Assembly (NCBI RefSeq): GCF_021134715.1
Contig: NC_060026.1
Location: forward strand, 11,585,001-11,649,000
Source of the DNA: Daphnia pulex
Taxonomy: Eukaryota > Arthropoda > Branchiopoda > Diplostraca > Daphniidae
Length of the DNA: 64,000 nt
Direction: 5' to 3'
The position numbers were made by a program, and so were the translations under genes. How positions within the stretch are numbered: the first letter of the stretch is position 1; each line of letters starts with the position of its first letter. Under the pieces are notes generated by a model, which was not told the DNA's origin, ran no database searches, and saw only the letters and a program-made list of their open reading frames with translations. Below are positions 23,391 through 46,600 of the stretch, one piece after another.

Positions 23391-26300
23391 ATGGTCCGTT
23401 CATTCTCTTTTCTTGTGTTTTTAATTTTGGGTTGCTGGATAATTTGTTTTTCCAGTTATGTTAATGCTCAATCACAGTCAGTCCAGTCAGTCAAATCGTC
23501 CCAGTCATCATTCAGTTCGAAGCAATCATCCGGACAGCCAGTCCAAACATCCCAGTCATCATTTGCGTCAGTCAAGACATCAGGTCAATCATCAGTCCAG
23601 TCATCAAAGCAATCATCAGGTCAGTCATCAGGCCAGTTAGGCAAATCGTCCCAGTCATCATTCAGTTCGAAGCAATCATCCGGACAGCCAGTCCAAACAT
23701 CCCAGTCATCATTTGCGTCAGTCAAGACATCAGGTCAATCATCAGTCCAGTCATCATACCAATCATCAGGTCAGTCATCAGGCCAGTTAGGCAAATCATC
23801 AACTCATTCAAAAAAATCAAGGAAATCCTCAGGCAAGTCATCAGACCAGTCAATCCAGATACCAGGCGAGTATGCCAACCAGGCCAGATCATCCAAACAA
23901 GTCCATTCATCAGGCAAGACAGTAAAGTCATCAGCCCAGTCCTCAGTCCGGCAAGCTCAGTCATCAAACAAGTCAGTCCAGTCCCTTATTAAAACAACCA
24001 AATCATCTAAGTCATCAGGTCAGTCAATCCAGTCATCAGGTCAGTCAATCCAGTCATCAGGCCAGTCAATCCAGTCATCAGACTGTTTAATCCAAACAAC
24101 AGGCGGGAATGCCCATCAACACCAAGAACTATCAGGCCAGTCAGGCAAGGTATCAGGACAATTCACCCATTCGTCAGGCCAGGTAGTCCAGTCATCAGGT
24201 CAGTCACAACAGGCAGCTGGCCAATATGTTTATTCATCAGGCCAGAACGCACATAGATACCATTCATCAGGGCATTTAAGCCAATCAGGTCAGGTATCAG
24301 GCCATAGGTCAAGCCATTCAGGTCAGACAGTCCTGCAAACAGGACAGTTAGCCAAACAGTATGACCAGTCGTCAGGTCAATCATCAGGCCAGTTAGTCCA
24401 TCAAACAGGGCAGATATCTGCAGGTCAGGCATCAGGGCAGTTTGCCCAGTCATCTGGATATGTATCTGGACAGTATACCCAGTTATCTGGCCAATCCGAC
24501 CGGTCATCAGGTCAGTCCGTAGAATTAGCAGGCCAATATGTCCCGTCATCAGGCCAAGCAACAGGCCAGTTTGCCCAGTCATCAGGCCAGTTCACCAGAG
24601 AATCAGGCCTTGCAACAGGCCAGCATGCCCAGTCATCCGGATATGTATCTAGACAGTATGCCCAGTTATCTGGCCAATCAGACCGGTCATCAGGACAGTC
24701 CGTACAAATAACAGGCCAATATGTCCCGTCATCAGGCCAGTTTGTTCAGTCATCAGGCCAGGCAACAGGCCAGTTTGACCAGTCATCAGGCCAGTTTGCC
24801 CAGTCATCAGGCCAAAGAACAGGCCAGTTTGCCCAGTCATCAGGCCTTGCATTAGGCCAAAATGCCCAGTCATCCGGATATGTATCTGGACAGTATGTTC
24901 AGTTATCTGGCCAATCAGACCGGTCATCAGGCCAATCCGAAGATATAACAGGCCAATATATCCCGTCATCAGGCCAGTTTGTCCAGTCATCAGGCCAGGC
25001 AACAGGCCAGTTTGACCAGTCATCAGGCCAGTTTGCCCAGTCATCAGGCCAAAGAACAGGCCAGTTTGCCCAGTCATCAGGCCTTGCATTAGGCCAAAAT
25101 GCCCAGTCATCCGGATATGTATCTGGACAGTATGCCCAGTTATCTGGCCAATCAGACAGGTCATCAGGCCAATCCGTACAAATAACAGGCCAATATGTCC
25201 CTTCATCGGTTCAAGCAACAGGCCAGTTTGCACAGTCATCAGGCCAGGCAACAGACCAGTTTGCCCAGTCATCAGGCCAAAGAACAGGCCAGTTTTCCCA
25301 GTCATCAGGCCTTGCATTAGGCCAAAATGCCCAGTCATCCGGATATGTATCTGGACAGTATGCACAGTTATCTGGCCAATCAGACCGGTCATCAGGCCAA
25401 TCCGTACAAATAACAGGCCAATATGTCCCGTCATCAGGCCAGTTTGTCCAGTCATCAGGCCAGGCAACAGGCCAGTTTGCCCAGTCATCAGGCCAGGCAA
25501 CAGGCCAGTTTGTCCAGTCATCAGGCCAAAGAACAGGCCAGTTTGCCCAGTCATCAGGCCTTGCATTAGGCCAAAATGCCCAGTCATCCGGATATGTATC
25601 TGGACAGTATGCCCAGTTATCTGGCCAATCAGACAGGTCATCAGGCCAGATTGCCCAGTCATCAGGCCAAGCAACAAGTCAATATGTTTCGTCATCAGGC
25701 CAGGCAACAGGTCAGTTTGCCCAGTCATCAGGCCAAAGAACAGGCCAGTTTGCCCAGTCATCAGGCCAGGCAACAGGCCAGTTTGCTCAGTCATCAGGCC
25801 AAGCAACAGGCCAGTTTGCCCAGTCATCAGGCCAGGCAACAGGCCAGCTTGCCCAGTCATCAGGCCAAGCAACAGGTCAATATGTTTCGTCATCAGGCCA
25901 GGCAACAGGTCAGTTTGCCCAGTCATCAGGCCAAGGAACAGGCCAGTTTGCCCAGTCATCAGGCCAAGCAACAGGCCAGTTTGCCCAGTCATCAGGCCAA
26001 GCATCAGGCCAGTTTGCCCAGTCATCAGGCCAGGCAACAGGCCAGATTGCCCAGTCATCAGGCCAAGCAACAGGTCAATATGTCCCGTCATCAGGCCAGG
26101 CAACAGGCCAGATTGCCCAGTCATCAGGCCAGTTTGTCCAGTCATCAGGCCAAGCAACAGGCCAGATTGCCCAGTCATCAGGCCAAGCAACAGGTCAATA
26201 TGTTTCGTCATCAGGCCAAGCAACAGGTCAATATGTTTCGTCATCAGGCCAGGCAACAGGTCAGTTTGCCCAGTCATCAGGCCAAGGAACAGGCCAGTTT

Positions 26301-28860
26301 GCCCAGTCATCAGGCCAAGCACCAGGCCAGTTTGCCCAGTCATCAGGCCAAGCACCAGGCCAGTTTGCCCAGTCATCAGGCCAAGCAATAGTACAGCTTG
26401 CCCAGTCATCAGGCCAAGCAACAGGTCAATATGTCCCGTCATCAGGCCAGGCAACAGGCCAGTTTGCCCAGTCATCTGGCCAAGCACCAGGCCAGTTTGC
26501 CCAGTCATCAGGCCAGGCATCAGGCCAAGGAACAGGCCAGTTTGTCCAGTCATCAGGCCAAGCAACAGGTCAATATGTTCCGTCATCAGGCCAGGCAACA
26601 GGTCAGTTTGCCCAGTCATCAGGCCAAGGGACAGGCCAGTTTGCCCAGTCATCAGGCCAAAGAACGGGTCAATATGTTCCATCATCAGGCCAGGGATCAG
26701 GCCAGTACGCCCCGTCATCAGGCCAGTCAGGTCAGGCGCCAGGCAAGTCAACAGGAAAGAATGCCCATCGAGGCAAATTGGTCAAGCCAACCAAGTCACC
26801 AGGCAAATCAGCTGAATCTGCCAAGATGGAAGAAAAACAATTAGAATTGGAAAAGAAGCTGGATTTGTTGGATACAGACTTGAAAATTGCGAAAAATAAA
26901 CATCAGCTGCTAGCTGAGGAAGTAACTAATAAAGCTACTAAAAATATGGAACTTGAAGAGCAGGTGAAGAAACTAAAACTTCAACTCACAAAAAGTGTAA
27001 GTTTCATTTCAATTTAGTTTTGCCCATTTTGTCTTTCAGTTCTGTCCTAACTGTTTAATAACGATGTACTTAAAATATATTTTCGATCGAATGAAAAACA
27101 TTTGTCAATTCCGACGGCAGAGCGCAAATCAACAAGAATTGCTGACGAAAGTAAATGAACTAGAGACGGCAGTGCAGGAACACGAAGAATATTCGTCTTC
27201 CCTGTCACGCCAGGACGAAGGTCAAGAAACAGAAAATGTCTGGACCAAGAGCGAATTCTACAGGACATGCGCCGATCTCCGCGCAACGGATCTTTCGATT
27301 CCATCCGGAATGCGATGGATCGATCCGGACGGCCAAGGCGTCGGCGAAAATCCAATTCACGTGTATTGCAACATGTCAACAGGTAAATTGAATTTTTGTT
27401 TTCTTCTTTGAAAAAATAAAATAAAATAAAAAATTCATTTTCTCATCCCATAAAAGGATCGACCTCAATTCTACATGATAGTGAATCTTCTATCAAAGTG
27501 AGTTACTGCGCCGAGCCCGGGTGTTATTCGCGCTCCATCATTTACCAAGCATCCATGGCACAAATAAAAGCTTTGGCCGATTTGTCTAGTGAATGCCATC
27601 AGTCGATTACAGTAAATCTCTTTCTAAATAGATATCCTGTTAATTAGTTAAAAATTTATTTAATTTTAAATGTATCTCAGTACGATTGCTTCCTTGCACC
27701 GTACAAAGTCGGCAATACCGTTTACTCCTGGTGGAACGACAGAGATGGAAATTCACAATATTTCTGGTCCGGAAATAACGCAAATGGAATATACACCTGT
27801 CAGTGCGGAATAGACGGAAATTGTGTCGATTCTTCGGTTACGTGCAACTGTGACAGTCTTGCAAAACGGCAGTTAACCGATAGCGGTAAGTTGTATTAAT
27901 TTCATATCAGAAAATGGGAAACAACAATGTTGGGTCAAAACCAAAATTTATTTGTTCAGGTGCCATCAGAAACAAAAATATTTTACCAATCACTCGCCTC
28001 AATTTCGGACTAACTAAATCGCCAACTGCCTCCGGTATCCACAAGCTGGGCAGATTGACATGCTCCGGATATTCCAGACCTCGCCGAAACATTCCAGGAC
28101 ATTCGTTGAAACCTCCCGGACAAGTAGATGGAACTGCTATTGCAAAATTGCCAACGTCCTGTGGTGATGTAAAGAAAATGGGCTACACCCTAAGCGGTTT
28201 CTTTTTTATCAAAGGACCGAAAATGATGGAATCCGTTTACTGCAATTTCACTAAACTCTCCACAGACGCAGGTTAAATATTACATTTTTTTAATCAATTG
28301 TTGATTGTTATCAACCTAATTCTATTTGCTATTATTTTCTATTGCGTAAAGATTTCCAGAAATTTATCGGATACATTGACGGCAAATCGGCGCCAACGTA
28401 TTTTTACGTTCAACGAAACAAAAAATTTGCCGAAATCAATACCCCAATTACCTTCGATTCTGAACTTGTAAACGCCGGAAATGCTGTGAGTCTGTCATCA
28501 GGAAAATTTAAGGCGCTCGTCAATGGAACCTATTTCTTCTCCTTCGCGGGAAGGGCATTTTCTCCGGCTTCATCGTCGTTGCCGCCAAATGGCCAAAGAG
28601 ATTTCGGTTTGCAAGTTTCTCTGTATTTGAACGGTGAGCAAACTGGGATTGATTCGGTTCAAGATTCAACCATCGACTCTAATCAATGGAGTCCTGTGAT
28701 CCTCCAGTCGACCCTTAACTTGAAAAGGGGCGATACTGTCTGGGTACAAATTTCTTACCTTTCGCCAGGAGCTTATTTGCATGGTGACAATTTCCACCAC
28801 ACCCAATTCACTGGTTTTATGCTGGATGAGAAAATTGTTAACTCCCTCTTAACTGCATAG
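23391..28860 (+). CDS. Secreted SSGQ-repeat / CASPR-type fibrinogen-like / C1q protein
   Basis: Six exons (23391-26996, 27121-27382, 27457-27611, 27681-27885, 27960-28271, 28352-28860) join in frame into about 1,682 residues. The start is the first ATG; the frame is open upstream but without an ATG. Order: signal peptide (residues 1-29), Ser/Gln/Gly repeat region to about residue 1130, short coiled coil continuing into exon 2, then a Cys-rich domain with PSGMRWIDPDGQGVG, VYCNMSTG, SWWNDRDGNSQYFWSG and CQCGIDGNC motifs, and a C1q domain from about residue 1515. The middle domain resembles the fibrinogen-like region of neurexin IV/CASPR proteins. C1q domains usually trimerise, so a secreted oligomer is likely. 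Substrate and role are unknown; a matrix, glue or recognition protein would fit. Paralogues start at 36997 and 40937. Confidence 0.88.
24450..26720 (+). repeat. In-frame 33-bp tandem repeat (SSGQATGQFAQ)
   Basis: Exon 1 of the first C1q gene carries an 11-residue unit SSGQATGQFAQ, and variants such as GQYVPSSGQ, repeated dozens of times. A higher-order block containing SSGYVSGQYAQLSGQSDR recurs six times, near 24453, 24635, 24873, 25108, 25336 and 25587. Repeat units at the DNA level are close to identical (core TCATCAGGCCAG). This suggests ongoing unequal exchange, and length differences between individuals are likely. Confidence 0.9.
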
Positions 28861-29391
28861 ACGAATTTTCGTCATACCGTAGAGAATTTAATTGGTTCTT
28901 ATAATAAATGGGCAAAATTAAATTTAATAAGCTGAAGCGCATTTTTTTGTATTGTTATACAATATACATATTTAGAGAGTGTTGGTTATAACCGGTATAA
29001 TAACATAACAGCCAGTTGGGTTGTGTTTTCTAATTTATTTGGACAGTTTCCAATTAGACTCCGACTTGCATATTTCTTGCATCATTATTCACAATAAAGT
29101 CTGACAGTCTCCGCAGCAGTTCACGACTCAATAGGAGTCCAAACTTTCCCAGCGGATTCCCTCCCTTCGGCGACCGATGAGAATGAATCTCAAGCTGATT
29201 TGGGCAAATCTAAAACTTTTAAATATATGAAGGCCAATTACTTTTTGGGGAAGAAAAAAGAAAAGAGACGCAGCGAAATAAAATGAAAGAAAGAATTTAA
29301 TTTTTATAGCGATGACCAGCACCAACTATCCTGTATATATTATCAGTTCACCAGTCGAAATCGGCAGCAGTGCAATTTTTTTTAGAGCGGT
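28861..29391. other. Short spacer between convergent genes; contains a duplicated 3' block
   Basis: An AATAAA-type signal follows the first C1q gene near 28904. About 28976-29100 aligns with 39836-39965 downstream of the second C1q gene ('ataacagccagttgg' and the following 100 bp), so the 3' flank was copied together with the gene. Confidence 0.6.
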
Positions 29392-32300
29392 TTAAGTATT
29401 GCCACACTGACCATAATTTGACAAGGATGAATAGACGGCGAGAAAACCGGGGAAGGAAGTATCCCCGTCTGACGTAAACCTAACCATCACTTGATTAGTC
29501 GAGGAGTTAACAACAAAAGGTGTCGGTACGGATCCCGATTTTGCCAATAAAAGTTTTGAGTGGACAGTAGTTCCATCGTAAACCTATATTTTATAGAAAA
29601 TTAAATTATTGTTCACAATATGTAGTCTCAAATTATTTTAAAATCAAACTTACAGATAAGAAATCCGAGCCCTCTTGCGTCTCGAAGAACGCAAAAAGTA
29701 GCCGGACTTTTGATCCCGGTTTCACGCTGATAGTCCAGCGACAGTCCGTCAGATGAGGATAGAGCATCGGATAGTTTGGGCTTTTTATGGTCCCGCTGGT
29801 TCCTTCGTAGTAATATTTGCATTTCGATGAGGATATCTGTTTTGGGCAGCGGATACCATTTCAAATGAGAATTACACCAACACGAACAACCATTTCGTAC
29901 CTTGGAAACGTTCCAGTAAAAGGTGCGGTATTCATTGATGACTTTAGGTTGTTTTAAATGGACCAACATTTTGTTGGTGATTGAGAATATGACCGCGTTG
30001 TCTTGTTCGTTAGATGGTTTGCCATCGTAAAGCACAAGACTGTCTGTACTCCATCCGTCGTAAACCTTTTTAAACACAAAAGAGTAGGCCTATGAACATT
30101 AATTGGAATAATGTATAAGAGAAAGACATTTATAGACTTGCAGTTATAGTTGGATAAATGAAATGGGATAATACAGGGGTCATCTTGGAAGTTATGAAAT
30201 CAAAAGAATATTTTCTCAGTAGAAAACTGTCTTCACTGTTCCAGGATTCAATAAACCAAAAGCAGTCGTCTCTACTTGTCGCAGCAGATAAATAATTCGG
30301 AGTCGAAATAACCCCTTCGCCGTTAATATAACCACCGCAGCCTAAAGGAGAAATTAAATCTGTTAATTTCTATTTTTTTATTTTTTTGCACTTCTGAATA
30401 CTGAAAAATATTTTTTTTGTCAGTACACGCACCGGGTACAAATGACTCGTCTGTGAGGTTAACCTGAAATTAAACCAATGTGAGAAAATAAAAAAAATAA
30501 ATTTCTAAGATGTCGTAGTAAGAATTTTACACTTGTATAGAAAGCCTCAATTCCATAATTCGGGTCATGGTACGATGGGAATTCAACAAACAAGTCGCTG
30601 GATGATGACCGCACAGAGTACGGCTTACTTAATCCACTGTGTGATAACAGAAGAGGACTGGACGAGTAGGGGCCATCATAAACCTATAATTATGGGTCAA
30701 CAAAAATATTTTCAATTGGCTCAATAATCGCGACTGTGTGTGAAATGTGTCATTACTTTGATAAAATGCTTGTCTTTATAAGTGACAAATTTATTGAAAG
30801 TCAGCCAAATTTGGTGGCCGGGTTGAACTGATATCAACACTGCCGTTTTCCGAACGGCATCAGGAACTCTGTCTGGATGAATTTCAAACGCAGGTTTAGG
30901 AAAAATCCGGGACGAAAATTTACCCGATGCATTCGTGAACTGCTGACACACATATGCGTAACCTGTATAGATAAAAAGGAACAAGAGATTAATATTTCAC
31001 CTTTAATACATTTTGACTTAGTAATTCCAAAGCATATACATACTGCAATCGTAGCCTTCATCGGAACCATCCAGACAGTCGTATTTACCATCACAAACTA
31101 AATCCTTCGGTAAACATTGCTGTCCACATCGAAATCTTTCTTTGTTGCACTGATATACAAACAAAAAATTTCGTTCTTAAATTTTAAAAAGATTTTTTTT
31201 TTAAGTATTTATAGAAAGCGAAAGCGATAGTATACCTCGGTATTACAATGTTTTTCGTCCCGACCATCGTCGCACTGGACATCACTTTGGCAAATGCTGA
31301 TGGATTGTATTTGTTGGCAGCGGCCATGAAATGGGCAGTAATAATGATCTTTCGGGCATCGCCAAAAATCGCTTATGTTCACCGGGTAGTTTCCTATATT
31401 AAATATAAGATTAATTACGTGCTCATGTAAAAAAAACCAAACACATGGAAATCGTTTGCCCGATTCTAAGATTGTGGCAAACTTTGAGACCGGCAGCGAA
31501 ATTTCAAAAAATACATAACCTTCTTGTCCTGTAAATATTTCCCACGACGACGACGGACTATTCCAGGCCGAGTACTGAGAGCTGACATCGAGTCTGTATT
31601 TGCGACACGTATCTAAAGGCTTCCAGTCTATCGGACAGGTTTGCCTATCGGCCGGCAACTCCAGTGAAAACAGGTTTTCATTTTTCCTAAGATGCTGCAG
31701 GCAACTACGAGGAACACTAATGGTCGTAATGGCCTTTTCTTTATCTGCAATTCCATCCTTTAAAAAAATAATAATAATAATGAGGAAGAAAGTTTGAAAC
31801 TTGTTCAGCCATATACAGGCAGGTAAATTCTGAACTCTGGGCTGTTTACTCGAAATATTTTCAAGTTGAAGGACGTTAACTGCGGCGCGCATCCAGAATT
31901 GTCTTCCCAATTGAAGACCAACGAATTCGATTGATGGGCCATTATAACGCTTATCAGCGGTTTCGTGCTGGATTCGTCGCTTTGCTGTTCATAATGAGTA
32001 TAATAACGACAGAAGCTTTAAGGGCGATATATTAGCGTATGTCGTTAGTCACCTTAATATTGGGCGGAATGACCATTTCCGTACGCAGAGTTTTGCCGCA
32101 AAGTGACTGATAGTTTGGAATGACTTCAACGACGTAAGCGCTGCACTGGGTGAGATTTTTGGTCATGGAAAAGAAACAGGAATCCTTTTCGTCGGCCGAC
32201 GGTGACTGCGGGAAAAGGACGATCGAATACGAAGCAGCATCTTTGTTTACAAGGCAGCACTTTTGAGGAATAGATAAGGCAGTTATTGCTGTCGCCTCTT

Positions 32301-33101
32301 CCGGCAACTTATTGTCATCACCTTCAGATGCCTGGTAAATGCGAATCCAGACACCCGAACTAAATTTGAGACAGTCCGCGGAGAGGATGGGCCATGTTAT
32401 ATTCAGGGACCCATTGGTCATTACGGAAGCTTTGATGTGCGCATCAGATTGATTGGCCTTTAGATCATGATCTGCGAGTGAAAATCAAAATACCGTAAAT
32501 TTTATGTATACCCTATGAAGTATAGAAAATGGTAAAATGAATAATGGATATATCTTTTCCTGTTATACCTTTCGTACTGATGTCTATCAAATTTGCTAAT
32601 GAACATTTGATTGCTCCCTTCAAATGTTCGACGCTTTTTCCATCCTGAGAGAAATCTGCATAAAAATAAACAATAATGCATCTCAAAATTTCATTATGAA
32701 TTAATTTAATAAGTGTTACCTTTCGTTGCGTCTGAAGGGTTTTCCTCAACGGCAGCGTTTAGACCACTCCCGAAATTTTGAATACATTCTGAACGTGATA
32801 AGATTTCCCTAACCGCCTGATCCTGCTCTAACATTTTATTGACTGTTGTAAACAATTCACTTTTTTGAATTGAAAGAATCGAAACTATGGCTCGGACAGC
32901 GCTTTCAATGGTTTCCAAACGGTTCTGCAGCTGCTGATGGCATTCATCTCCCATGTCGCAAATGGGGGCTGATGTTGGTTCGTCACCAAGGTTTTCCACT
33001 GGCATTTCTGATTTAGCAATAACATTTAAGAATATGTACATACCGCACCCGTATATCCCCATGGCCATGTTAAGATACCACAGCTTTTCGGACAAATTCA
33101 T
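29392..33101 (-). CDS. FN3 / LDL-receptor A / CUB multidomain extracellular protein
   Basis: Fourteen exons on the minus strand (first 33101-32720, last 29583-29392) join in one frame of about 884 residues. Residues 8-30 are hydrophobic (signal peptide or type II anchor). A coiled-coil stretch follows ([20 protein letters not shown] and beyond). Exons 3 and 4 encode two FN3-like domains. Exons 6 and 7 encode two LDLa modules (the second with [13 protein letters not shown]). Exons 8-9, 11-12 and 13-14 encode three CUB domains, the last with [20 protein letters not shown] and ending GQCGNT. Such proteins bind ligands at the cell surface or in the extracellular space; the partner is unknown. It diverges from the second C1q gene across about 3.9 kb. 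A broken copy lies at 1-3598. The domain family is clear; no orthologue is named. Confidence 0.85.
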
Positions 33102-34808
33102 GGCGAATAAAAAATATCACGCTTGAATATAGTAAAGTACAATCTACAAAACTAGCTGCTTCCAGTTGTTACTCAGCCCGATACTCATTCGTCACTAGGA
33201 TTTTCTAGGACAAGAAGTGCCACAAAGAGAAAACGCAATATTTAAATGTTGATTCCAATGAAGCATATCACATTTACCAAAGTTTCAAGTTACATGTTAT
33301 TGATTCGCCTATATAGAATAAGCTTTCATTCCAAAGTCCTCTAACCAGTGCGCAGACAGAAGTTCTATAAACAAATTCTAATTTTTTTAAATAATATATA
33401 TTTTTTTAAAGATTTGAGGGAATTGATATATAACTCTGGGTGTAGTATATGGAAATATACAACACCCACTCACACGCAGCACATCGTACTAATTATCTAA
33501 GAGGAGAAAAGGAGCGATGGAAAGTGGAAACAAACTTTTTCTTTTTCTCTGTATTTCGTTCCACAATAAATTAATTATTTTACCAGTCGGTTAAATTCGA
33601 TTTAGCGATCTGTTTCTTCTCTCTGTCTCGTAGATTTGTACTGGAATAAAAAAAAATGTTTCGAATTTGCAGCCTTTTAATAAATTATGAAATTCTAAAT
33701 TATTTTTAAAAATAATAAATTAAACCATCAGTTAGATAAAACTCCCAATACTATATAGCACATGAAATCAAATGTCATGTTGAAACGGAAATATCAATGG
33801 AATTTGTCTGCTGGCGTTTCGTTCTGGTGATCAGTTCGTCAGTCTGGTGATATCGGTTCAGTTGTTCAAATAGTTCATAATCTTTCATCTTGCTTACCTT
33901 TGCGTGCATGTTATATATTTTTTGTTTCCCGGCATATTTTTGAATGTCCATCAATTTCATTGTTGAGTGATAGATTTTCTAATCTCTATGACAGGTTGTA
34001 CGAAAGTAAATACTATAAGGCCAAGATTAATCTAAATGACAATGATATCGTACGTTCCTATTCACCCTATGCATCCTACGCAATCGTACGTGCTCGGATA
34101 AGAATATCGACATCTCGATCTCTATTCGTCCTTCCAAAATAGGAATACCTAACAGGTGAAACGTTTTTTTCACAACAGTTTGTATAATACACCCCACACA
34201 TCTACCCACACATCTACCCACACGATAGATTAGACTTGACAGCTCACGCGCGGCAACGGCGGCAACCAAATATCGTAGGTAATAACAACATCAATCCCAC
34301 GGTAAACAAAATCCTAATCTAATAAAATATTCTCAAAAAGCAAGAAGGGTGATAAGTCGAGAAATAAGTGAAATAAGTCGAGTGAAAGTGTCTTAATACA
34401 AAACTGTTATACTCCACCAACACCGAAATGAACCCGATCGTTCAGCAATGTCTTAATTGACGCCCATCCAATACAGCGAATCGGTAAGTTAAAAAAAAAG
34501 ACGTCCATCACAAATTCTATTCTGCATGCTTCATATACTTACCGCTGTTTGTTTATTTGTCCTTCAGTGTGCGTGGCGAAAACCCTTGTGAAAACCTCTA
34601 TACAGTGGATCAGCAGCCGGTCTAACCGACGGCAGAGTAGCTACCAGTTGATGCTTTGGTATACGACGAAATTAAAATTAAAATTTTGCCAGACCATTAG
34701 GATTTAGTTCTGCAACTGCCAACAAAGATATATCCCTCATACCTTTTGATTACTTTGTGTGTTACGGTACGAATATAATTTCTCTTTATTCTCATTCTTC
34801 ATGGCAAG
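33102..34808. other. 5' flank of the CUB/LDLa/FN3 gene
   Basis: No gene was recognised. About 33730-34600 aligns with 7620-8560 in the left copy. A short tandem 'acacatctaccc' repeat lies at about 34196-34221. Confidence 0.55.
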
Positions 34809-34922
34809 AAAAGGACATTTTACCTAAGTGGTGTGGACAGAGCGCTGGGCGTCGGATGGGCAACTACTGGAGGAAACGGCTGGACCTATTTTTTATCAGA
34901 CAATGTGTTTCCACTTGGTACT
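34809..34922 (+). other. Orphan exon-like segment
   Basis: A 114-bp open segment of 38 codons is preceded by a pyrimidine tract and AG, and followed by a consensus GTAAGT donor. It would read KRTFYLSGVDRALGVGW and continue with GNGWTYFLSDN. The pattern is loosely like a C-type lectin exon, but that is only an impression. No partner exons were identified, so it may be a relic of a lost gene or an exon of an unrecognised one. Confidence 0.3.
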
Positions 34923-36087
34923 GTAAGTGACGATGCGGTTGAATACAATAACGAAGTGAGATTTGTAATTTTTTCTTGATTTGTATGCGTTTATAATACG
35001 AGTTCTTTTAACTAAAAAATATGGTCACGATCGTCGCTAGCCAAAAAGACACTTTGGAAAAGCGATATTTATCAAGTGCCTAATATAACAGCAAACAGAG
35101 GACGCCGAAGATATTCGCCCAAATTTTCCAAAAAAATTAAAGTTCAAAAGAAGCGAATAAGTCTCTCGTGTATTTCTACGCAAGCCCAAAGTATCTCTGA
35201 TTCGCTGGTGGTGTAAACTAAAGAGAAAGGAAGAAAGAATTGGGTCTTACTGGTCTGTTGGTACCAAAATAAAAATTAAAGAAAAGGATGTCTATAATAG
35301 TTCTGGATCGAGATATCGAGGGATCGAAGGGTTGCGGCCCACTCTTTTGTCAAGCAAACCTATAGGGCAAAATGAGAAAATTAAAAAAAAAAAAAATATT
35401 TTTCCCGGCTTTTCTCAGCCTTCTCAGCAAACTAGGCTAGACAGGATTTTTCCCTAAATTTGTGTATGTTTCTCGATTTCAGACGATTTCGGATAATAAG
35501 CACAATGGAGCATAAGCACAATGGCCATCATACGCATAGTAGTATATTTTACGTTTTTGTGTTTTACAGTTTGGTTTTATTTTATAGCAAAGCCAGAGAT
35601 AGGCCTACCTATAGTATTGACGTAAACACTTTGTATAGGTGTATAGTGGTCAAAGGTTGGAGTGTTAGCGCGTCTAGTCTACAAGGTATTAAAATCCCAA
35701 GGTTTGTTATCAACCTAAAATTGATGCCAGAGAAAGGTTGTGTTAGAAGAAAATAAAAATTATCTATTTTGCGGTGGGGAATTATTATATTGAGTGAAAT
35801 ACTTAGGTATGTGCAGGTGGAAAAAGTTGTGTGCTCATCAAAGGACGCTTTTTTTAATACATTAAAAAAAATGGAGCAAAATCTTACAAAAAATTATAAA
35901 TTTGGTTCATATATATATACATATGCTGTGATACTAGAAAATGCACTTGTTTCATATTTATCCGCATTTACATTATGAAATGCGTTCCGCCCCTCCCCCC
36001 CCCCCCCAAAAAAAAAAAAAAAAAAAAAAAAAATTTAATCCAGTCCAATGCAGTCGCATAGAAAAATTATCTTGGTGGGGTGCTGAC
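34923..36087. other. Gene-free spacer with a C/A homopolymer junction
   Basis: A run of C (35995-36007) runs directly into a run of A (36008-36033). ORFs of 98 and 69 residues (35460-35756 and 35769-35978) show no recognisable features. Confidence 0.45.
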
Positions 36088-36300
36088 CACACACATGCAG
36101 CCAAAGTGTAAAGTTTTATCTTTTTCTTTTTTTGATCCCCCATACAGATTTTTTTTTTATGGGTCAGCCACTGATAACGCGCCTATAGCCTACGAGTTAT
36201 AATCCTATTTGCTGCCCGCTACTAAACAATCAGAAATGAACTTTAGGTTGAAAAGTCTTGGTATTGAGACTTCATACCGTAGGTGTATTGATTCCCACTC
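36088..36300. repeat. C1q-gene upstream block, second gene
   Basis: It aligns with 10535-10745 and more loosely with 40205-40440 and 19350-19550, including 'ctactaaacaatcagaaatg'. This is the best preserved reference for the duplicated promoter-side block. Confidence 0.7.
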
Positions 36301-36949
36301 ACAAATCACAATATACTTACCACATAATTGAATAATTCCAAAGGAAGCCGCGTAGGCTGCAGTTTAAAAAATGCGTAGGCCTATATAGCCCATCAATCAT
36401 TAATCGAAATCGTAAAATGGTTTTGAGTAAATTTTCATTTTTGTTCCTCTAATGTTCGTTATTAACCTGCATAACAACAAACAAACAAAAATCAAATAAT
36501 TATCAAAATGAAAGAATTAAAAAAATTGTTACTCAAAGTGAAAGTTGAGGCAACGAGTCTATCGTTGCCTGGTATATTATCAAGAACGTGGAGCACACAA
36601 AAAGAAATTAAGATTAATCAATCGTTAATTAAAAATAGAAGATTCAGTGAAGAATTGCTTTCCCTGATGATGAATAATGGAAACATCATATTTTAACGTT
36701 TCAACCTTATAGGTTAAACTCCTTCTCTTAAATTTGTTTATTTAGTTGTTTGTAATTGTATAGGCTACCTTATAGTTAAAAAAACCTACTGCTGATTTCA
36801 TTGCACAACGACAAAAGCTAAATGTTTCACATCGAAACGGTTATAAACTCGTCAATACGTATATCTTATTTATTTTTGTTATTCTTGAAAGATAAGACTT
36901 GACGTAAAAGAAGCGATAACCGTACACCGGCTTCCAGCTCTAAAGTGGC

Positions 36950-36956
36950 TATAAAT
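36950..36956 (+). promoter_or_regulatory. TATA box of the second C1q gene
   Basis: TATAAAT lies 47 bp before the ATG, in the phrase TCTAAAGTGGCTATAAATTG shared with the other two C1q genes. Confidence 0.6.
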
Positions 36957-36996
36957 TGAAACAAATCGCCGAATATATGACCAAAGACTGGGAAAA

Positions 36997-39078
36997 ATGA
37001 AAATGATTCGTTTCTCTATCCCCGTGTTATTAATTTTATGTTGCTGGATTGTATGTTTCTCTTTCGGTACTGTTGATGCTCAACTCAGGACGGACAAGCC
37101 AAGAGACAAGCCAGTAGGTAAGAGAGCAGGTAAGCCGGACAAACCAGTCAATCCGCTTAAGCCCGACAGAACAGGCAAGAAAGCCCAACCAGACGATGTT
37201 CAGACTAAAATAGGAGAACTTGAAAATCTGGTAAAGAAACTGAAGAATCAACTCGACAACAGTGTACGTTTCATCTCTATATCTACGTAGTTTCACCCTA
37301 TTTCTTTTAACCTTTTCGTGGCTAACTAATGGATAGATTAATTGATCATTTATTTTTTGGGGAATAAAACAAAACATGCGTCTATTTCTACAACAGAATG
37401 CAAAACAACAAGATTTGTTGAAGAACGTAGCGGAATTGGAGACCAAAGTGAAAAGAATCGAAAAGGTTATACCTTCCATATTGGATCATATCGCGCGTAA
37501 AATACCAGATATTCCCATGAGTGAGATCCACAGAACGTGCGCAGAAATCCGTGCAATGGATGTTTCGATTCCATCCGGAATGCAATGGATCGATCCGGAC
37601 GGACAAGGCGTCGGCGAAACTCCAATTTACGTGTACTGCGACATGACAACAGGTAAAATGAATTTGTGTTTCCTTCGCTAATTGAAACAAAAAAAGACAT
37701 TCACTTTTCTTTACTTAAAAATAAGGATCGACCACAATTAAACACGATAGTCTCGCTCCTATCAACGTGGGTCACTGCGCAGGGGCCGGATGTTATTCGC
37801 GCCCCATCAAATATGAAGCGTCCATGGCACAAATAAAAGCTTTGACCGATTTGTCTAGTGAATGCCGTCAGTCGATCATAGTAAGTTTCGTTGGTACCTA
37901 TCTGAATAGATATCATGTTCATAAGGGAATTCATTATAATTTTTAGTACGATTGCTTTAACGCGCCACACAAATTCCAAAATACCATGTTATCCTGGTGG
38001 AACGACAGAAATGGGAATTCACAATATTTCTGGGCCGGAAACAACGCATACGGAATTCCCACCTGTCAGTGTGGAATTGATGGGAATTGTGCTGTTTCTT
38101 CAGTCATGTGCAACTGTGACAGTCTTGGACAACAGCAGTTATCCGACAAAGGTAAATTGTTTTACTGACATCGGAAAATGATAATAGTAATGTTGGCTCA
38201 AAAACTTTTGATTTGTTCAGGTGTTATCACTAGCAAAAATATTTTACCAATCACTCGCCTTAATTTTGGTGGAACTCCATCGCCATCTTCCTCCGGTATC
38301 CACACACTGGGCAATTTGACATGCTCCGGATATTCCAGACAGCCAGAACCCTCGACAAAACCTGCAGAAATCGCTACTCCAATGCCAAAGTCATGTGGTG
38401 ATCTAAAGAAAATGGGTTACACCCTGAGCGGTTTCTTTTCCATCAAAGGACATAAAATGATGGCATCCGTTTATTGTGATTTCTCCAAACTCCCTACAGA
38501 TGCCGGTAAAATATTTGAATTTTTATTAATTATTTATTCAATTTAAAACTGATTTATTACGAAAAGGTTTCCAGAAATGGATTGGATACATTGACGTCAA
38601 ATCGGCGCCAACGTACTTTTACGTTCAGCGAAACAAAAAATTCGACAAAGCCAACACTCCAATTACGTTCCATTCTGCGATCGCAAACGCTGGAAATGCC
38701 ATGAATCTTCTAACAGGAAAATTCAAGGCACTCGTCAAGGGAACCTATTTCTTCTCCTTTTCCGGACTTGCGTTTTCTCCTGGATGCTCTAATGCTTGTT
38801 CATCTTTGATGTATCAAGTGAAAAATGATTTCGGTTTACAAGTCTCTCTTTTACTGAATGGTGAACGAATCGGGTTCGGTTCCGTTCAAGATTCGAACGC
38901 CGTCGCCAATCAATGGAGCCCTGTGACCTTCCAGTCGACCCTGATCTTACAAAAAGGCGATACTGTTTGGGTACAAATTTCTTACCTATCGTCAGGAGCG
39001 TATTTGCACGATGACAATTTCCACCACACCCATTTCACTGGTTTCATGTTGGAACAGGAAATCCTCGACTCCCTTTGA
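36997..39078 (+). CDS. Secreted coiled-coil / CASPR-type fibrinogen-like / C1q protein
   Basis: Six exons (36997-37263, 37397-37652, 37726-37880, 37947-38151, 38221-38505, 38567-39078) give an uninterrupted frame of about 559 residues. The first 29 residues are a signal peptide ending near FGTVDAQ. Instead of SSGQ repeats there is a short Lys/Pro-rich spacer, followed by a coiled coil (VQTKIGELENLVKKLKNQLD). Exons 2-5 carry the Cys-rich fibrinogen-like domain (VYCDMTTG, SWWNDRNGNSQYFWAG, CQCGIDGNC). Exon 6 is the C1q domain ending GAYLHDDNFHHTHFTGFM. Exon lengths 3 and 4 (155 and 205 bp) equal those of the paralogues. Exons 2-4 and their introns are almost identical to the third gene, which points to recent duplication or conversion. 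Likely a secreted oligomer; ligand unknown. Confidence 0.88.
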
Positions 39079-39231
39079 ACTGTAGAAGAATTTGTGTCGT
39101 AGAGAAAATGGCATTAATTCTAATACAAAGGTCAAATGAAAGTTATTAAACTGGGGCGTTTTTCTTGTTTTGTATATAATAGCATCCAGCAATCTCGTGA
39201 AAGATAAAAATGAAATGTTGTTTGTTCACGG
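39079..39231. other. 3' flank of the second C1q gene
   Basis: Short non-coding stretch. No canonical gene feature beyond the likely 3' UTR was seen. Confidence 0.4.
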
Positions 39232-39591
39232 ATGTCACGAAATGTGGCATGGTTGCCATCACTTATATTGGTTATTGCCAGCTGGTTGCTTGCTGCCTTT
39301 GCCAGACCTGTTAAAATCTTTGGATTTTTAGACAGGGTATTCGGGAAAGCCCGTTTCCCGCACTTTATGGATACTCTCCTCCCTCCAAAAAACCAAAAAA
39401 TTTCGATGACGTCGTTTACCGAACGGCCCCATAGGGCTATACAACGTTTGCTATCAACAGATTCTGCTAATCAGTACGTATGTTACGATCTTACGAACCA
39501 GGGAAGTTCCGACTATAAACAGATCTCTACGTCGGTCTCCCAGTCATTTTTCAAACTAGGGAAACGCACCAGACAATTTTTGAATATCTGA
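39232..39591 (+). CDS. Hypothetical small protein with signal-peptide-like start
   Basis: An ATG-started ORF of 119 codons begins with a hydrophobic stretch (WLPSLILVIASWLLAAFA) that would act as a signal peptide or membrane anchor. It continues with a basic, featureless tail. No family was recognised, no TATA box or paralogue was seen, and it lies in spacer DNA between two C1q genes. It may be a chance ORF. Conservation in related species would decide. Confidence 0.25.
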   Translation: MSRNVAWLPSLILVIASWLLAAFARPVKIFGFLDRVFGKARFPHFMDTLLPPKNQKISMTSFTERPHRAIQRLLSTDSANQYVCYDLTNQGSSDYKQISTSVSQSFFKLGKRTRQFLNI

Positions 39592-40882
39592 ATATATAAC
39601 TGCTACATGAAATTGTCACATACCTAAATAAAACTCGTCATATCCAATCTCTTTGTCTGATTTCAATTAATGAATAATTATTCATTCAAAATATAAAAAT
39701 TACGGGTAGCAACAACGAATAATTTAAAGGCTCATCGTCATTCTTTCATTCAAGACACGTAATGAGGTTCATGTGATTGCAAGGGTCGCTGATATGTGGG
39801 AACGTCTGATTCTATATGAATGGTAACAGCTGTATACATGATGGTATACTAACATAATAACAGCCAGTTATTGTATTGTTGTGTTCCCGATTTATTGGGG
39901 TAGTCTCAAACAAGATAGTCCTCCGCCTTGCATTACAGCCCTGGATAATTCACAATATAGTGCTCATAACCATCGGTTACGTAATAAAAGTAAATTTGTC
40001 TTGCTGTGTTTTGGAATGTCTGTCGGGACTTCCATCTAAAAGGCCTACATCGAAACTCTAGTGAACAGAATACGTGGACGTTTTGCTTTTTTACTGGTTG
40101 CGAATTTTGCGATTACATGCGATTAAATGATTTTAAAAAATAAAAAAATTGGACAAATAATATATTTTTTTTTCATCGTCGAATTCCTTGTCGTCCTGTT
40201 GCAGCCCACCTGTTTTCCACCCAGACGCCCATAAAGTGCAGAGCAAAGTTTTATCTTGTTATCTTGTTTTTAAAAAATTCCACATAGCCACACATTTAAT
40301 TGTTATATATATATGGGGTCCATAGGCTTATCGACGATTCCGAGTTATAATCCTATAAGCTGTTACAGCGGCTGTGAAACAATCAGAAATAAGCATAAAG
40401 TTTATGAACTTTATGTACTTATCGACTTCATACATGTACTGTAGCCTGTAGGTTTATTCTCATCTACAGTTTTCTTATCACATACTTGCGTAATCTCAAA
40501 GGAGGCCGTAGATTGCACACTACTCAAAGCCAAAGTTAAAACTGTCTTTAGTAGATTGAAAAATATGCAGCAAATTCTAAACCAACACCAATTGGATAAT
40601 AAATAATAATATCAATCATTAATTTTAAAAAATAGGTTTCAACATGTGGTTATAATCTTCGTCTAGTTTCGTCAAATATTTTGTGTTGATGTTTCTGAAG
40701 ATTTTTAACGTTAAAACAAACCTCATGGACATTGCACAACGGCAATAGCTATAAATGTTCAGATAGAAACGTTTAAAGCTTAAAGTATGTTTTATTACAT
40801 GTATAATCCATTTAAGATAAAAACCTGACATAAAAACGGGCAAGAATCATACTCCGGATCCAACGCTCGGCTCTGAAATGGC
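39592..40882. repeat. Duplicated spacer between C1q genes
   Basis: Positions 39836-39965 match 28976-29100 (3' flank of the first gene). Positions 40205-40440 match 19350-19550 and 36088-36300 (5' flanks). Positions 40498-40800 match parts of 12940-13420. No gene was recognised in it. The order, 3' flank followed by 5' flank, is what a tandem duplication of a gene plus both flanks would leave. Confidence 0.65.
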
Positions 40883-40890
40883 TATATATT
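40883..40890 (+). promoter_or_regulatory. TATA box of the third C1q gene
   Basis: TATATATT lies 54 bp upstream of the ATG, in the phrase TCTGAAATGGCTATATATTG, the shared motif of the three paralogues with one change in the TATA core. Confidence 0.55.
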
Positions 40891-40936
40891 GAAACACCAA
40901 ATTGTGACCAGAGCCAGTTAGATTAAGACGGAAAGA

Positions 40937-43089
40937 ATGAAAATGATTCGTTTCTCTATCCCCGTGTTATTAATTTTATGTTGCTCTATTATTTGTTTTT
41001 CTTTCGGTACTGTTGATGCTCAAGGCGACTCAGGCAAGACGGCCAAGTCAGAAGTCAAGACGGAGAAGCCAGGAGACAAGCAAGTAGGTAAGACAGCAGG
41101 TAAGCCAGGAGACAAGTCGGCCAATAAACTAGGCCTAGTCAACAAGCCGCGTAAGCCCAACAAAATCAAGAAAGCCGAGCCAGCTAAGTCGACCAAGCCA
41201 GACGATGTTCAGACTAAAATTGGAGAACTTGAAAATCTGGTAAAGAAACTGAAGAATCAACTCGACAACAGTGTACGTTTAATCTCTATATACTTAGCTT
41301 CACCCTTTTTCTTTTAACCTTTTCGTGGCTAACTATAATGGATAGATTAATTTGATCATTTATTTTTTGGGGAATAAAACAAAACATGCGTCTATTTCTA
41401 CAACAGAATGCAAAACAACAAGATTTGTTGAAGAACGTAGCGGAACTGGAGACCAAAGTGAAAACACTCGAAAAGATTTTACCTTCCATATTTGATCAGA
41501 TCGCGCGTAAAATACCAGATATTCCCATGGGTGAGATCCGCAGAACGTGCGCAGAAATCCGTGCAATGGATGTTTCGATTCCATCCGGAATGCAATGGAT
41601 CGATCCGGACGGACAAGGCGTCGGCGAAACTCCAATTTACGTGTACTGCGACATGACAACAGGTAAAATGAATTTGTGTTTCCTTCGCTAATTGAAACAA
41701 AAAAAGACATTCACTTTTCTTTACTTAAAAATAAGGATCGACCACAATTAAACACGATAGTCTCGCTCCTATCAACGTGGATCACTGCGCAGGGGCCGGA
41801 TGTTATTCGCGTTCCATCAAATATGAAGCGTCCATGGCACAAATAAAAGCTTTGACCGATTTGTCTAGTGAATGCCGTCAGTCGATCACAGTAAGTTTCG
41901 TTGGTATCTGAATACCGTAGCTATCCTGTTAAGGGAATTTATCATAATTTTTAATGTATCCCAGTACGATTGCTTCAACGCGCCGCACAAATTGGAAAAT
42001 ACCATGTACTCCTGGTGGAACGACAGAAATGGGAATTCACAATATTTCTGGGCCGGAAACAACGCATATGGAATTCCCACCTGTCAGTGTGGAATTGATG
42101 GGAATTGTGCCGTTTCTTCAGTCATGTGCAACTGTGACAGTCTCGCACAACGGCAGTTATCCGACAAAGGTAAATCAGTCATGTCATCAGAAAATTTTAA
42201 AAATAATATGTCTCAAAAACATTTTGATTCGTTCAGGTGTTATCACTGACAAAAATATTTTACCAATCACTCGCCTTCATTTTGGTCGAACTCAATCGCA
42301 ATCTTCCTCCGGTATCCACACACTGGGCAATTTGACATGCTCCGGATATTCCAGACAGCCAGAACCCTCGACAAAACCTGCAGAAATCGCTACTCCAATG
42401 CCAACGTCCTGTGATGATCTAAAGGATATGGGTTACACCCTGAGCGGTTTCTTTTCCATCAAAGGACATAAAATGATGGAATCTGTTTATTGTGATTTCA
42501 CCGATTTTTTCAAGATCCCGGTAAAATATTTGTTTTGCATTAATTATTTATTCAATTTAAAACTGATTTATTACGAAAAGGTTTCGAGAAATTTATTGGA
42601 TACATTGACGTCAAATCGGTGCCAACATATTTTTACGTTCAGAGAAACCAAAAATTCAACAAGCCCAACACCCCAATTACGTTTGATTTTGAGCAAGTAA
42701 ACGTCGGAAAGGCCATGAACCCATCAGGAAAATTCAAGGCATCCGTCAAGGGAACTTATTTCTTCTCCTTCGCGGGACTGGCGTTTTTTCCTGCTTGCTC
42801 TGATTCTTGCTTATCATCGTATAGTGTGAAAAATGAATTCGGTTTACAAGTCTCTCTTTTTTTGAACGGCAATCGAATTGGACTCGCGTCGGTTCAAGAT
42901 TCCATTTTCGTCTCCGCTAATCAATGGAGCCCTGTGACCCTCCAGTCGACTCTAAACTTACAAAAAGGAGATACAGTCTGGTTAGAAATTTCTTACCTTT
43001 CGTCAGGAGCGTATTTGCACGATGACAATTTCCACCACACCCATTTCACTGGTTTCATGTTGGAGGAGGAAATCGTCGACTCCCTTTGA
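40937..43089 (+). CDS. C1q-family paralogue with a frameshift in exon 5
   Basis: Six exons can be placed as in the paralogues (40937-41272, 41407-41662, 41736-41890, 41965-42169, 42237-42520, 42581-43089). They encode signal peptide, Lys/Pro/Gly-rich spacer, coiled coil, CASPR-type fibrinogen-like domain and C1q domain. Exon 5 is 284 bp instead of 285: near 42500-42520 the sequence departs from the other genes and is one base short. The full splice therefore runs into a stop early in exon 6, although exon 6 itself has an intact C1q frame. Skipping exon 5 would restore frame, because exons 4 and 6 meet in the same phase. It may be a recent null allele, an exon-skipped form or a sequence error. 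Exons 2-4 are nearly identical to those of the second gene. Confidence 0.75.
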
Positions 43090-43666: not shown

Positions 43667-46600
43667 TCAATCGCTGTCAGCCACATCGCTGGACTCTGGT
43701 TCACTTTCCATTTCTTCTTCCTCGCTTTCTTCTTTTTCAACCTTTTTCTTGTCAGTCTTCTTGCTGGAGCCCTTGGACTTCTTCTTGGCGCCTTCAGACG
43801 CTGAGGAGGATTCTTCGTCGGTGCTGATGTATTCCTTACTTTTGAAGTCGCCAGGAGATTTAACTGGAGTTGTTTTAGCAGCTTTGGTTGGCGTTTTAGT
43901 TGGCGTTTTGGTTGACGACTTGCTAGAGGACTTGGACGACTTGGCGGCTTTCTCCTCTTTGTCCTTGCTTTTGGAAGAACTGCTAGCAACTGCCGATCCT
44001 CCTCCAGACGCAGTATATTCTTTCATAGCCTTATCATAGGCCTCTTTAGCAACTTTAGCTTTGGCTTCCCATATAGATCGATCTTCAACCTTCTGCCACA
44101 TTTCGCCACCTTTTTTCATCAGATCTGTGACACTTATGCCAGGGTTATCTTTTTTAATCTGTTCGCGTGAGTCGTTCAACCACAGCATGTACGACGACTG
44201 TGGTCGTTTGGGCCTGTTTGCATCCTTATCCTTCTTGGATTTGTGCGATCTGGGAGTTTTAGGGGCCTACAACAAAATTAATAAACGATAAAAACTTTAA
44301 TTCTGAAATTATTGGCAAATTGAAAGATGATATTACCGCCGATTTCGAGCTACTGGATTTCTTGGGTTCCTTTTCCTTTTTCTCCTTCTCCTCTTTTTTG
44401 TCCTTCTTTTTCTTCTTTTTGGACGAGGAATCGGAATCACTGCCAGAACCACTGCCAGCCTTGGCAGCACTACTAGCCTTCGCAGCACTACTAGCCTTGG
44501 CTCCACCTGATGCGTCGGATGCTTCCGAGTCGGTCGTAGCCACATTGGAGTCGTATTCTTCTGCTACGTCACTTTCCTCACCAGGTTTGAAGTCTTCGTC
44601 ATTTTCATCAGAATCTCCACCCGAATCGTCACCTGCAACTGGCACATGTTAGTGGAAAGGCTTTTGTTTCGTTAAGCAAGGAAAACGTACCAACTGCGTC
44701 ACGCTGTTTGCCTTCAGCCTTGACACGAGCCAAATATGCGTCGGGCGCTTCCTCTTCGTCCGAATCGCCAAAATCATCCCCATGAGCGGACTTGTCCTAT
44801 TACGTACAACAAAAACTGATTAGTACAAACACTATCAATGGGTTGCTAGATCTTACGGATCGGCCAGTATTTTTGACGCGGAGCTTCTTGTTGTTTACGA
44901 AATCGTACAAGCGGTTATATTCCTCCTTTTCAATGCTACTGAAGGTGTGAACAACCCCATTTTTGGTCTCAACTTCGAAGTCAAAAGAACGGGTACTTCC
45001 TCCGCCACGAGCAAAGTTAACACTTGCAATTTCTTCGAATCTGTGCGAAGGAAGAATAAATTAAAAAATATGCAAACAAAAATTTCAGGGAAACGAATTC
45101 TACCGAATGTGAATAGGAGGTTTATGAACGTAAATAAAACCACGTTCTAGCGGATACAAGTATCCGGCTGCTGCTTTGTAGGAACATCCAACAGCGGGGG
45201 TTCCAGAATGGCTATAAATAATTAAAAAAGAAGGAAACTGTGAAATCAGTCTAGAACACTTGAAATGAAAATATAAAATTTTACCCAGTAAAATTTCCAG
45301 GTATAGTGACCTTTCGGTTAACCATGGCCTTCATGACGGTACTCATAACTTCATAAGTTGGACCATTACAATCACGAGAAAGTCGGCCTTCAAACTTTTC
45401 TTTCAATTCCTCCCTGTTAGGACAAACGTTTTTTGATGACGTGTTGAAAATGTTGAATTATTCAAAATTACTCACTCTGATAATGGTATTTCAAAAGATG
45501 TCTCCTCATCTTTGTTAAAGAGAAGGACCAAAAAGTGGTAACGCGTCTGACCTTGCTTAATAGGTGGATCAAGGCTTACCTGAATTACACAATAAAAATA
45601 TGTAGATTAATGATGATTCTTTTCTTAATTTCTTTTTCAGAGATGTGTAACTTACTACAAAGAAAATTTGCCGACCATCTTTGTGCGGAAGTAAAAACAG
45701 GCGAAGTACAGTAGAGGCTGGAATCTTGTAGTCAAATGTCTTACCATGAAGTTGAAAGAATGATTGGAAAACTTTGATGTCATAGCGACCTCTGTCAAGG
45801 ATAAAAACTAAATGAGCAAATGTTTTAAGTACAAATGATAGAAAATACCTTGGTGTGAGGCACTGAACTTCTCTGAAGATGGCAATTGCATCACCAGTAG
45901 CACTGATGACACTTGCTTTAGGCATCACCTGCTTCTGGAATGCTTCAACAGCATCATCTCCACCTTGATCATTGGACTGAATGAAGAGACGCATCTCCAT
46001 CAGACTGACTGATGCATCATCATTCTAGTTTTAGAGAAAATAAAGCAGTAGGTAAGATGTCTGCAGCATTGTTTGTCATAATAGTACCCACCTGATGGAA
46101 TTCTAAGGTGACTTCATTTTTCCCTGTTGTGCATTGGGACACATTGCTTAGAGGAATCTCAAAGGCAGTATGGTTTCCAACTTCAAAAGACATAGTTGAA
46201 CCACTGAACTCAGCACGGCCCCAATTCCATCCTTTGACACTCAGCTCTTTCTCCAGCATGTCTTTTTTGTAGGTTTGAGTAAAAAACTTTGCCAGCTTGT
46301 CTTGATCCTAGACAAAACCAAATTAATAGGAAATTGAAAATAAAAAAGCTTTCAAATGTTAAAAAATTACTTACTGAATCTTTAAATCCACCATAGCGAT
46401 GAAGTGCTCCGGTTCTGAGAAATACACGTAGTCCCCAAGCACCAGCTAGTCGCTGCCAGTTAACCAATTCAATGTCAGAAGAACTTATCTGTTCAACTTT
46501 ACCCGTTTTGGAATTCTTGAACACGATACTCTGATCCGTTAGTTTTAGACGGCCTGGAGTCTAGAAGAAAAAATTTTGTCAATAGAAGAAGATTCACGTG

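Follow-up and report, generated by a model that had tools for sequence, protein, structure and literature searches.

The DNA considered here is a 64,000-nucleotide window of the Daphnia pulex genome (assembly GCF_021134715.1, contig NC_060026.1, positions 11,585,001 to 11,649,000, forward strand), and coordinates without a contig prefix refer to this window. Three neighbouring genes on its plus strand, A (23391-28860), B (36997-39078) and C (40937-43089), each have six exons, which encode a signal peptide, a spacer, a coiled coil, a cysteine-rich fibrinogen-like domain and a C1q domain. Tandem order and exon plan had been described in an original prediction made from the letters alone, and our gene models confirm both: A has its start codon at 23391, and the stop codon of C ends at 43089. 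The cysteine-rich motifs named there are also found, WWNDRNGNSQYFWAG together with CQCGIDGNC in exon 4 of B and C, and WWNDRDGNSQYFWSG in A.

After splicing, the open frames encode 1,682, 559 and 578 amino acids in A, B and C. All introns of A and B have GT/AG borders, with phases 0, 1, 0, 1 and 1 in both genes. Exon 1 of A (23391..26996) holds the signal peptide, a Ser/Gln/Gly repeat and the start of the coiled coil, and is recognized by its open frame, GT donor and hydrophobic N-terminus. The gene model continues with exon 2 (27121..27382; coiled coil and start of the fibrinogen-like domain, COLFI match of 40.7 bits), exon 3 (27457..27611; fibrinogen-like domain), exon 4 (27681..27885; the part with WWND...YFW and CQCGIDGNC, also seen in the genome search with exon 4), exon 5 (27960..28271; end of the domain and a small second Cys module, also seen in the profile scan) and exon 6 (28352..28860; C1q domain and stop codon). 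In B, exon 1 (36997..37263) encodes the signal peptide, a Lys/Pro-rich spacer and the coiled coil, as judged from heptad score and hydropathy. Exon 2 (37397..37652) carries coiled coil and the start of the fibrinogen-like domain, with Pfam and NCBIfam matches, and exon 3 (37726..37880) continues the domain. Exon 4 (37947..38151), again seen in the exon-4 search, contains SWWNDRNGNSQYFWAG and CQCGIDGNC, exon 5 (38221..38505) the end of the domain and the small Cys module, and exon 6 (38567..39078) the C1q domain and the stop codon, backed by Pfam, PDB sequence matches and a fold search.

Gene C follows the same model through exon 1 (40937..41272; signal peptide, spacer, coiled coil), exon 2 (41407..41662), exon 3 (41736..41890) and exon 4 (41965..42169, likewise found by the exon-4 search). 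Its exon 5 (42237..42520) is one base shorter than that of B, with its end shifted accordingly, and the standard junction to exon 6 breaks the frame (7 stops). The frame is kept by an acceptor 8 nucleotides (nt) further on, which gives an exon 6 at 42589..43089 with phase 0 at its border and contains the C1q domain and the stop codon, recognized by identity to B. An in-frame upstream donor, found by script, is an alternative. Poly-A-like motifs are located 43, 67 and 47 nt past the stop codons of A, B and C, distances that carry no chance control.

As the original prediction had proposed, the middle domain belongs with the fibrinogen-like region of neurexin IV/CASPR proteins. A profile of this domain, built from 40 members of the family described below and with neurexin IV not included, matches neurexin IV of the same genome end to end at 131.4 bits, covering positions 3-196 of 197. 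This neurexin IV came up in the search with exon 4 (C5:7497192, E-value (E) 3.9e-7), and its locus (L029, C5:7493500-7503000) encodes LamG, EGF and F5/8C domains and a membrane-like segment. These three domains are not matched in B at E <= 1 (Pfam) and the membrane segment is absent from A, B and C, where C1q is added instead. The same profile run on frames of two collagens of this genome gives 35.2 bits (positions 1-56), 33.6 bits and 14.3 bits. None of 2,000 shuffles scores above 10.3 bits, a value that even the third collagen frame exceeds. Cysteine is conserved in 14 columns at a level of 95% or more of the 40 rows; 12 of these columns lie in the scaffold and two in the second module of exon 5, and nine have it in every row. 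In B the Pfam COLFI match covers only profile positions 22-77 of 233. The stretch that exceeds the cut-off, about 50 residues at the start of the domain, is what is shared with the C-propeptide of fibrillar collagens. The fibrinogen-like NCBIfam model NF040941 matches B with 42.3 bits (cut-off 30). In the Pfam search B shows no other collagen or triple-helix match, and Fibrinogen_C, the FREP domain, is not listed at E <= 1. A reading as collagen propeptide only, following Pfam COLFI, was rejected, with neurexin IV matched over its whole length at 131 bits and the best collagen over 56 columns at 35 bits. Among solved structures a sequence search with the middle domain retrieves collagen chains only (best E 0.0013), and the fibrinogen-like region of neurexin IV retrieves nothing at E <= 0.1. 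Because of these results the fold of the middle domain is assigned by sequence kinship. The neurexin IV region lies in one unbroken frame of 485 amino acids, unlike the four-exon split in the family.

All three proteins are probably secreted, in line with the original prediction: their N-termini resemble signal peptides and no other membrane-like segment is found in A, B or C. The highest 19-residue mean hydropathy outside the signal peptide is 0.75 in A, 0.86 in B and 1.23 in C; in neurexin IV it is 3.01. On a home-made heptad score for the coiled coil, tested against 1,000 shuffles of each protein, the number of shuffles that do as well is 1 for B, 5 for C and 42 for A. The C1q domain of B matches Pfam PF00386 with 49.5 bits (cut-off 23.7) and also matches PDB sequences, and the C1q exon of A scores 52.8 bits. 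In C the domain is assigned by the 78% identity of its exon to that of B. The structure-based check of exon 6 points tentatively to C1q: the ten best hits of a fold search are all C1q-like proteins at E about 1e-6 and TNF-like proteins appear only from rank 11, although this jelly-roll search rests on a modest, low-confidence model of the B domain (mean predicted local distance difference test score (pLDDT) 53, predicted template modelling score (pTM) 0.55). Complement C1q proper has a collagen-like Gly-X-Y stalk, which the trio lacks: B has no collagen-repeat match in Pfam and the spacers of A, B and C contain no Gly-X-Y run. Vertebrate C1ql, cerebellin and adiponectin, which are among the search hits, share the C-terminal C1q domain, and the trio adds the fibrinogen-like scaffold before it. 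Bivalve C1q proteins likewise have a C-terminal C1q domain. The small second Cys module of exon 5 has no Pfam match; like the long repeat in exon 1 of A, it goes unmentioned in the original prediction.

Gene A differs from its neighbours in the first exon, which encodes 1,202 amino acids versus 89 in B and 112 in C. Most of it is the Ser/Gln/Gly repeat, which extends from the first to the last SGQ over residues 47-1115 (23529..26735). In these approximately 1,070 residues we count 91 SGQ and 36 head-to-tail units of 11 residues, the commonest being SSGQATGQFAQ (10 of the 36 units, 33 base pairs (bp)); tandem periods of 237 bp and 150 bp are also present. Residues 28-1150 consist of 24.3% Ser, 21.3% Gln and 15.3% Gly, with a single Cys and a single N-glycosylation motif. 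A protein search of the genome with the repeat as query gives 13 matches at E <= 0.001, all of them within this same open reading frame. The 3.6-kb exon is open in its coding frame, and its other two frames hold 27 and 16 stops. Candidate exon-1 donors of the relatives were located at codons 31-66, in a rough search in which several loci gave none.

The trio is part of a much larger family. In the genome searched (133 Mb, 13 contigs), exon 4 gives 76 matches, one of which is neurexin IV itself. Among the C1q matches listed, which are the best 150 of 242 and the best 150 of 273 candidates, a same-strand C1q domain is found 365-1,031 bp downstream in 61 of the 76, with controls of 9/76 for C1q upstream within 3 kb and 0/76 for the opposite strand. 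For ten of the other 15, scanning the locus with profiles does reveal a match to exon 6 (L030, L034, L035 twice, L038, L039, L040, L041, L053 and L056). The last five are without such a match or outside the scanned loci: neurexin IV, L018 (a 25-bit piece only), L031, L032 and C10:14170141. We estimate the family at about 70 places in the genome, which are places and not proven genes because some copies are split or damaged. The joined C1q lists contain at least 179 places, and 118 of those listed are unpaired with exon 4. In each of the five unpaired C1q genes inspected (L001, L002, L005, L006, L007), C1q is still preceded by the second half of exon 5; thus a shorter architecture, made of the small module and C1q, coexists with the long one. 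The small Cys module occurs more than once in L003, L033 and L035.

Gene models were built from exon-4 matches above 85 bits, which define 49 places and gave 41 full models. Three incomplete cases (L003, one of L035, L018) and five without a consistent splice site (L022, L033, L041, L053, L054) were left out, and L004, being the same gene as L013, was dropped, so that 40 models remain. On contig C10 (357089-374733), exon-4/C1q pairs of equal score recur at a spacing of exactly 13,215 bp (357932/371147 and 361315/374530), a pattern that a duplication of very recent date or a repeat in the assembly would leave. The COLFI matches include one pair with unequal scores (39.7 vs 37.4 bits).

Scaffold and C1q head have partly separate histories. 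Between B and C the synonymous divergence (dS) is 0.059 in exons 2-5 and 0.387 in exon 6, and intron 2 is identical over 73 nt. The scaffold tree joins B with C (100/99), while the C1q tree, reduced to 39 rows by a length filter and including gene C as the script model with the upstream donor, joins A with B (96/86). The two trees likewise disagree on the position of L016 and of two genes in L048. The B/C mosaic and the tree conflicts fit gene conversion or exon exchange, and caution is therefore needed against over-reading the site tests below.

Pair rates were calculated for 20 hand-picked models, from which a clade of seven genes was then chosen for its low synonymous divergence in the scaffold. 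The 23 close pairs comprise 21 within this C10 clade (L014, L019, L020, L021, L024, L025, L027), L017-L026 and A-B. For the scaffold, the median nonsynonymous divergence (dN) is 0.042 at a median dS of 0.185; for C1q the values are 0.208 and 0.227. C1q exceeds the scaffold in dN in 22 of the 23 pairs, and the exception is A-B. Codon models M1a and M2a were fitted with our own implementation, with branch lengths fixed from M0 up to scale and with codons at or near gaps removed, which leaves 127 C1q codons for the seven-gene clade. In this clade, M2a is favoured over M1a for C1q by twice the log-likelihood difference (2dlnL) of 73.5, with 11% of sites at a dN/dS ratio (omega) of 6.2; for the scaffold the value is 0.65. 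Thirty data sets simulated without positive selection gave 2dlnL of at most 9.95; the optimiser is not perfect, because one of these simulations gave -1.6. The C1q value stays between 51.8 and 87.9 across six variants (three trees including the scaffold tree and a star tree, with and without L014) and stricter gap removal. A second set (L012, L013, L017, L023, L026) gives 31.8 for C1q versus 1.26 for the scaffold. In two sets of relatives it thus appears to be the C1q head and not the scaffold that diversifies under selection.

The trio shows the reverse. Its omega is 0.285 for C1q (grid interval 0.20-0.40) and 0.643 for the scaffold (0.50-0.79), compared with 0.912 and 0.285 in the seven-gene clade. 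A common omega for trio and clade is rejected in C1q (2dlnL 18.74) as well as in the scaffold (13.05). No selected class is found in the C1q domains of the trio, and an omega near 1 is worse by 2dlnL 32.4. For the scaffold of the trio, M2a over M1a gives 6.67, which is weak with three sequences.

Based on these observations, the trio most likely consists of secreted, probably trimeric modular recognition proteins of an about-70-gene Daphnia family, with heads kept constant for a stable ligand; we give this reading a probability of about 0.6. The coiled coil would bring the chains together and the C1q-headed chain would trimerise. The fibrinogen-like domain of neurexin IV/CASPR type, presumably rich in disulfides, would form the conserved scaffold and the C1q head would bind the target. 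In the two sets of relatives, selection would diversify the head on a fixed scaffold, as is expected of a recognition repertoire. Since the head of the trio is kept constant, it probably binds a stable ligand, which could be self matrix or an invariant microbial surface, and gene A would present its head on a long Ser/Gln/Gly stalk. Adhesion or immune recognition, as the original prediction proposed, is our best functional guess. A wider picture is rather doubtful in our view: the family may be a germline repertoire for recognition, in which C1q heads vary on an unchanging scaffold of CASPR type and head and scaffold exons are swapped among loci. The trio would be its constant, fixed-ligand arm, and gene A would carry the head on a giant Ser/Gln/Gly stalk, perhaps serving as a sticky filament.

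Several points weigh against recognition. The trio itself lacks the arms-race signature which backs an immune use in the relatives. Within the 23 close pairs dS is also slightly higher in C1q than in the scaffold in 20, and the selected C1q sites are not enriched outside strands (8/15 vs 62/111, on the low-confidence model). Gene conversion, alignment error and recombination can inflate site tests, and the null simulations held none of them. The coiled-coil signal is weak in A. Gene C may be intact or damaged, because its standard exon 5-6 junction is out of frame and its other junctions keep the frame, and an intact protein may not be made from it. Five members of the D. pulex family Omcl23 are lower under predator cue according to PMC4514973, a response that is no direct sign of immunity.

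How the trio itself evolves would also suit structural proteins of extracellular matrix, cuticle or egg coat, in which C1q only trimerises, the fibrinogen-like domain cross-links and the repeat of A is a fibre or glue. The constrained C1q heads (omega 0.285) and the long repeat of A, with its lone Cys and lone N-glycosylation motif, are what such proteins could show, but diversifying selection on the head of related genes and the immune context in which a D. magna gene of the same domain order is reported, as far as the available text goes, speak against it, and we consider this possible yet on balance unlikely. The kinship of the middle domain to neurexin IV also brings to mind neuronal or epithelial adhesion ligands, with the CASPR-type domain working as it does at septate junctions, or the C1q head as it does in the synaptic organisers of the cerebellin/C1ql group. 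C1ql and Cbln are indeed among the fold-search hits; however, C1q fold hits do not discriminate function, LamG, EGF and F5/8C are not matched in B, and A, B and C have no membrane segment. A conserved role at junctions is also hard to reconcile with the high copy number and fast head evolution of the relatives, and we consider this reading very improbable. Drifting tandem duplicates of little function, with contrasts produced by gene conversion and decay, would explain the non-standard splice junction needed by gene C and the mosaic of B and C. We consider such drift highly improbable: A and B have long open frames, the first exon of A is open where its alternative frames are not, and the C1q heads of the trio are constrained, an omega near 1 being clearly worse. 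Recognition proteins with constant heads stay the preferred explanation.

Parts of this family have been described before. The D. pulex paralogue family Omcl23, 'Neurexin/Complement C1q', is listed with 82 genes in Table 4 of PMC4514973, a source which also gives 172 C1q and 56 COLFI genes for D. pulex. Omcl23 carries the same two domain labels as the family here and 82 genes compare with our 76 exon-4 matches, a likeness in label and copy number only; the accessible text on Omcl23 offers no analysis of structure or selection. In D. magna, according to the accessible portion of PMC11193740, gene 11F-21.35 with COLFI and C1q is close to Pasteuria-resistance loci, shows trans-species polymorphism and is said to be up-regulated after exposure. 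It is similar to the trio by description, with the same domain pair and a C-terminal C1q, and that portion mentions no Ser/Gln/Gly repeat. 'Unknown 3' in the available text of PMC4551569 is a D. magna gene with partial COLFI and C1q domains, and PMC13322756 mentions, in what is accessible of it, a domain that in Daphnia often accompanies C1q. The main text of PMC12102780, on selection in Daphnia gene families, contains no C1q, collagen, complement, neurexin or contactin. The combination of a fibrinogen-like domain with C1q is therefore already known, being named or described in the available parts of PMC4514973, PMC11193740 and PMC4551569. The original prediction's view of the tandem trio as the family and a fresh invention is not supported; the trio is one small branch of about 70 genes. 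What we did not find in word searches of open-licence literature is the repeat of A, head-only selection, the reverse pattern with a constrained head in the trio, and the exon mosaic with its partly separate histories of scaffold and head. Daphnia is a main model for host-parasite coevolution. Selection that changes the C1q exon and not the scaffold would point to the binding surface and make the recognition idea directly testable, for which the trio with its constant head would offer a natural contrast to its diversifying relatives.

The surroundings of the trio hold other genes on the minus strand. Between A and B, exons of a CUB domain are found at 29392-29857, with 46.6 bits at 29633-29857 and a second piece at 29392-29583 of 18.7 bits, under the cut-off. 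Five other minus-strand frames up to 33.1 kb gave no Pfam match at E <= 0.01. Just past gene C, at 43667-45057, an HMG box (71.1 bits) and a histone-chaperone middle domain (54.2 bits) lie together, a pair which we take to be that of the FACT subunit SSRP1.

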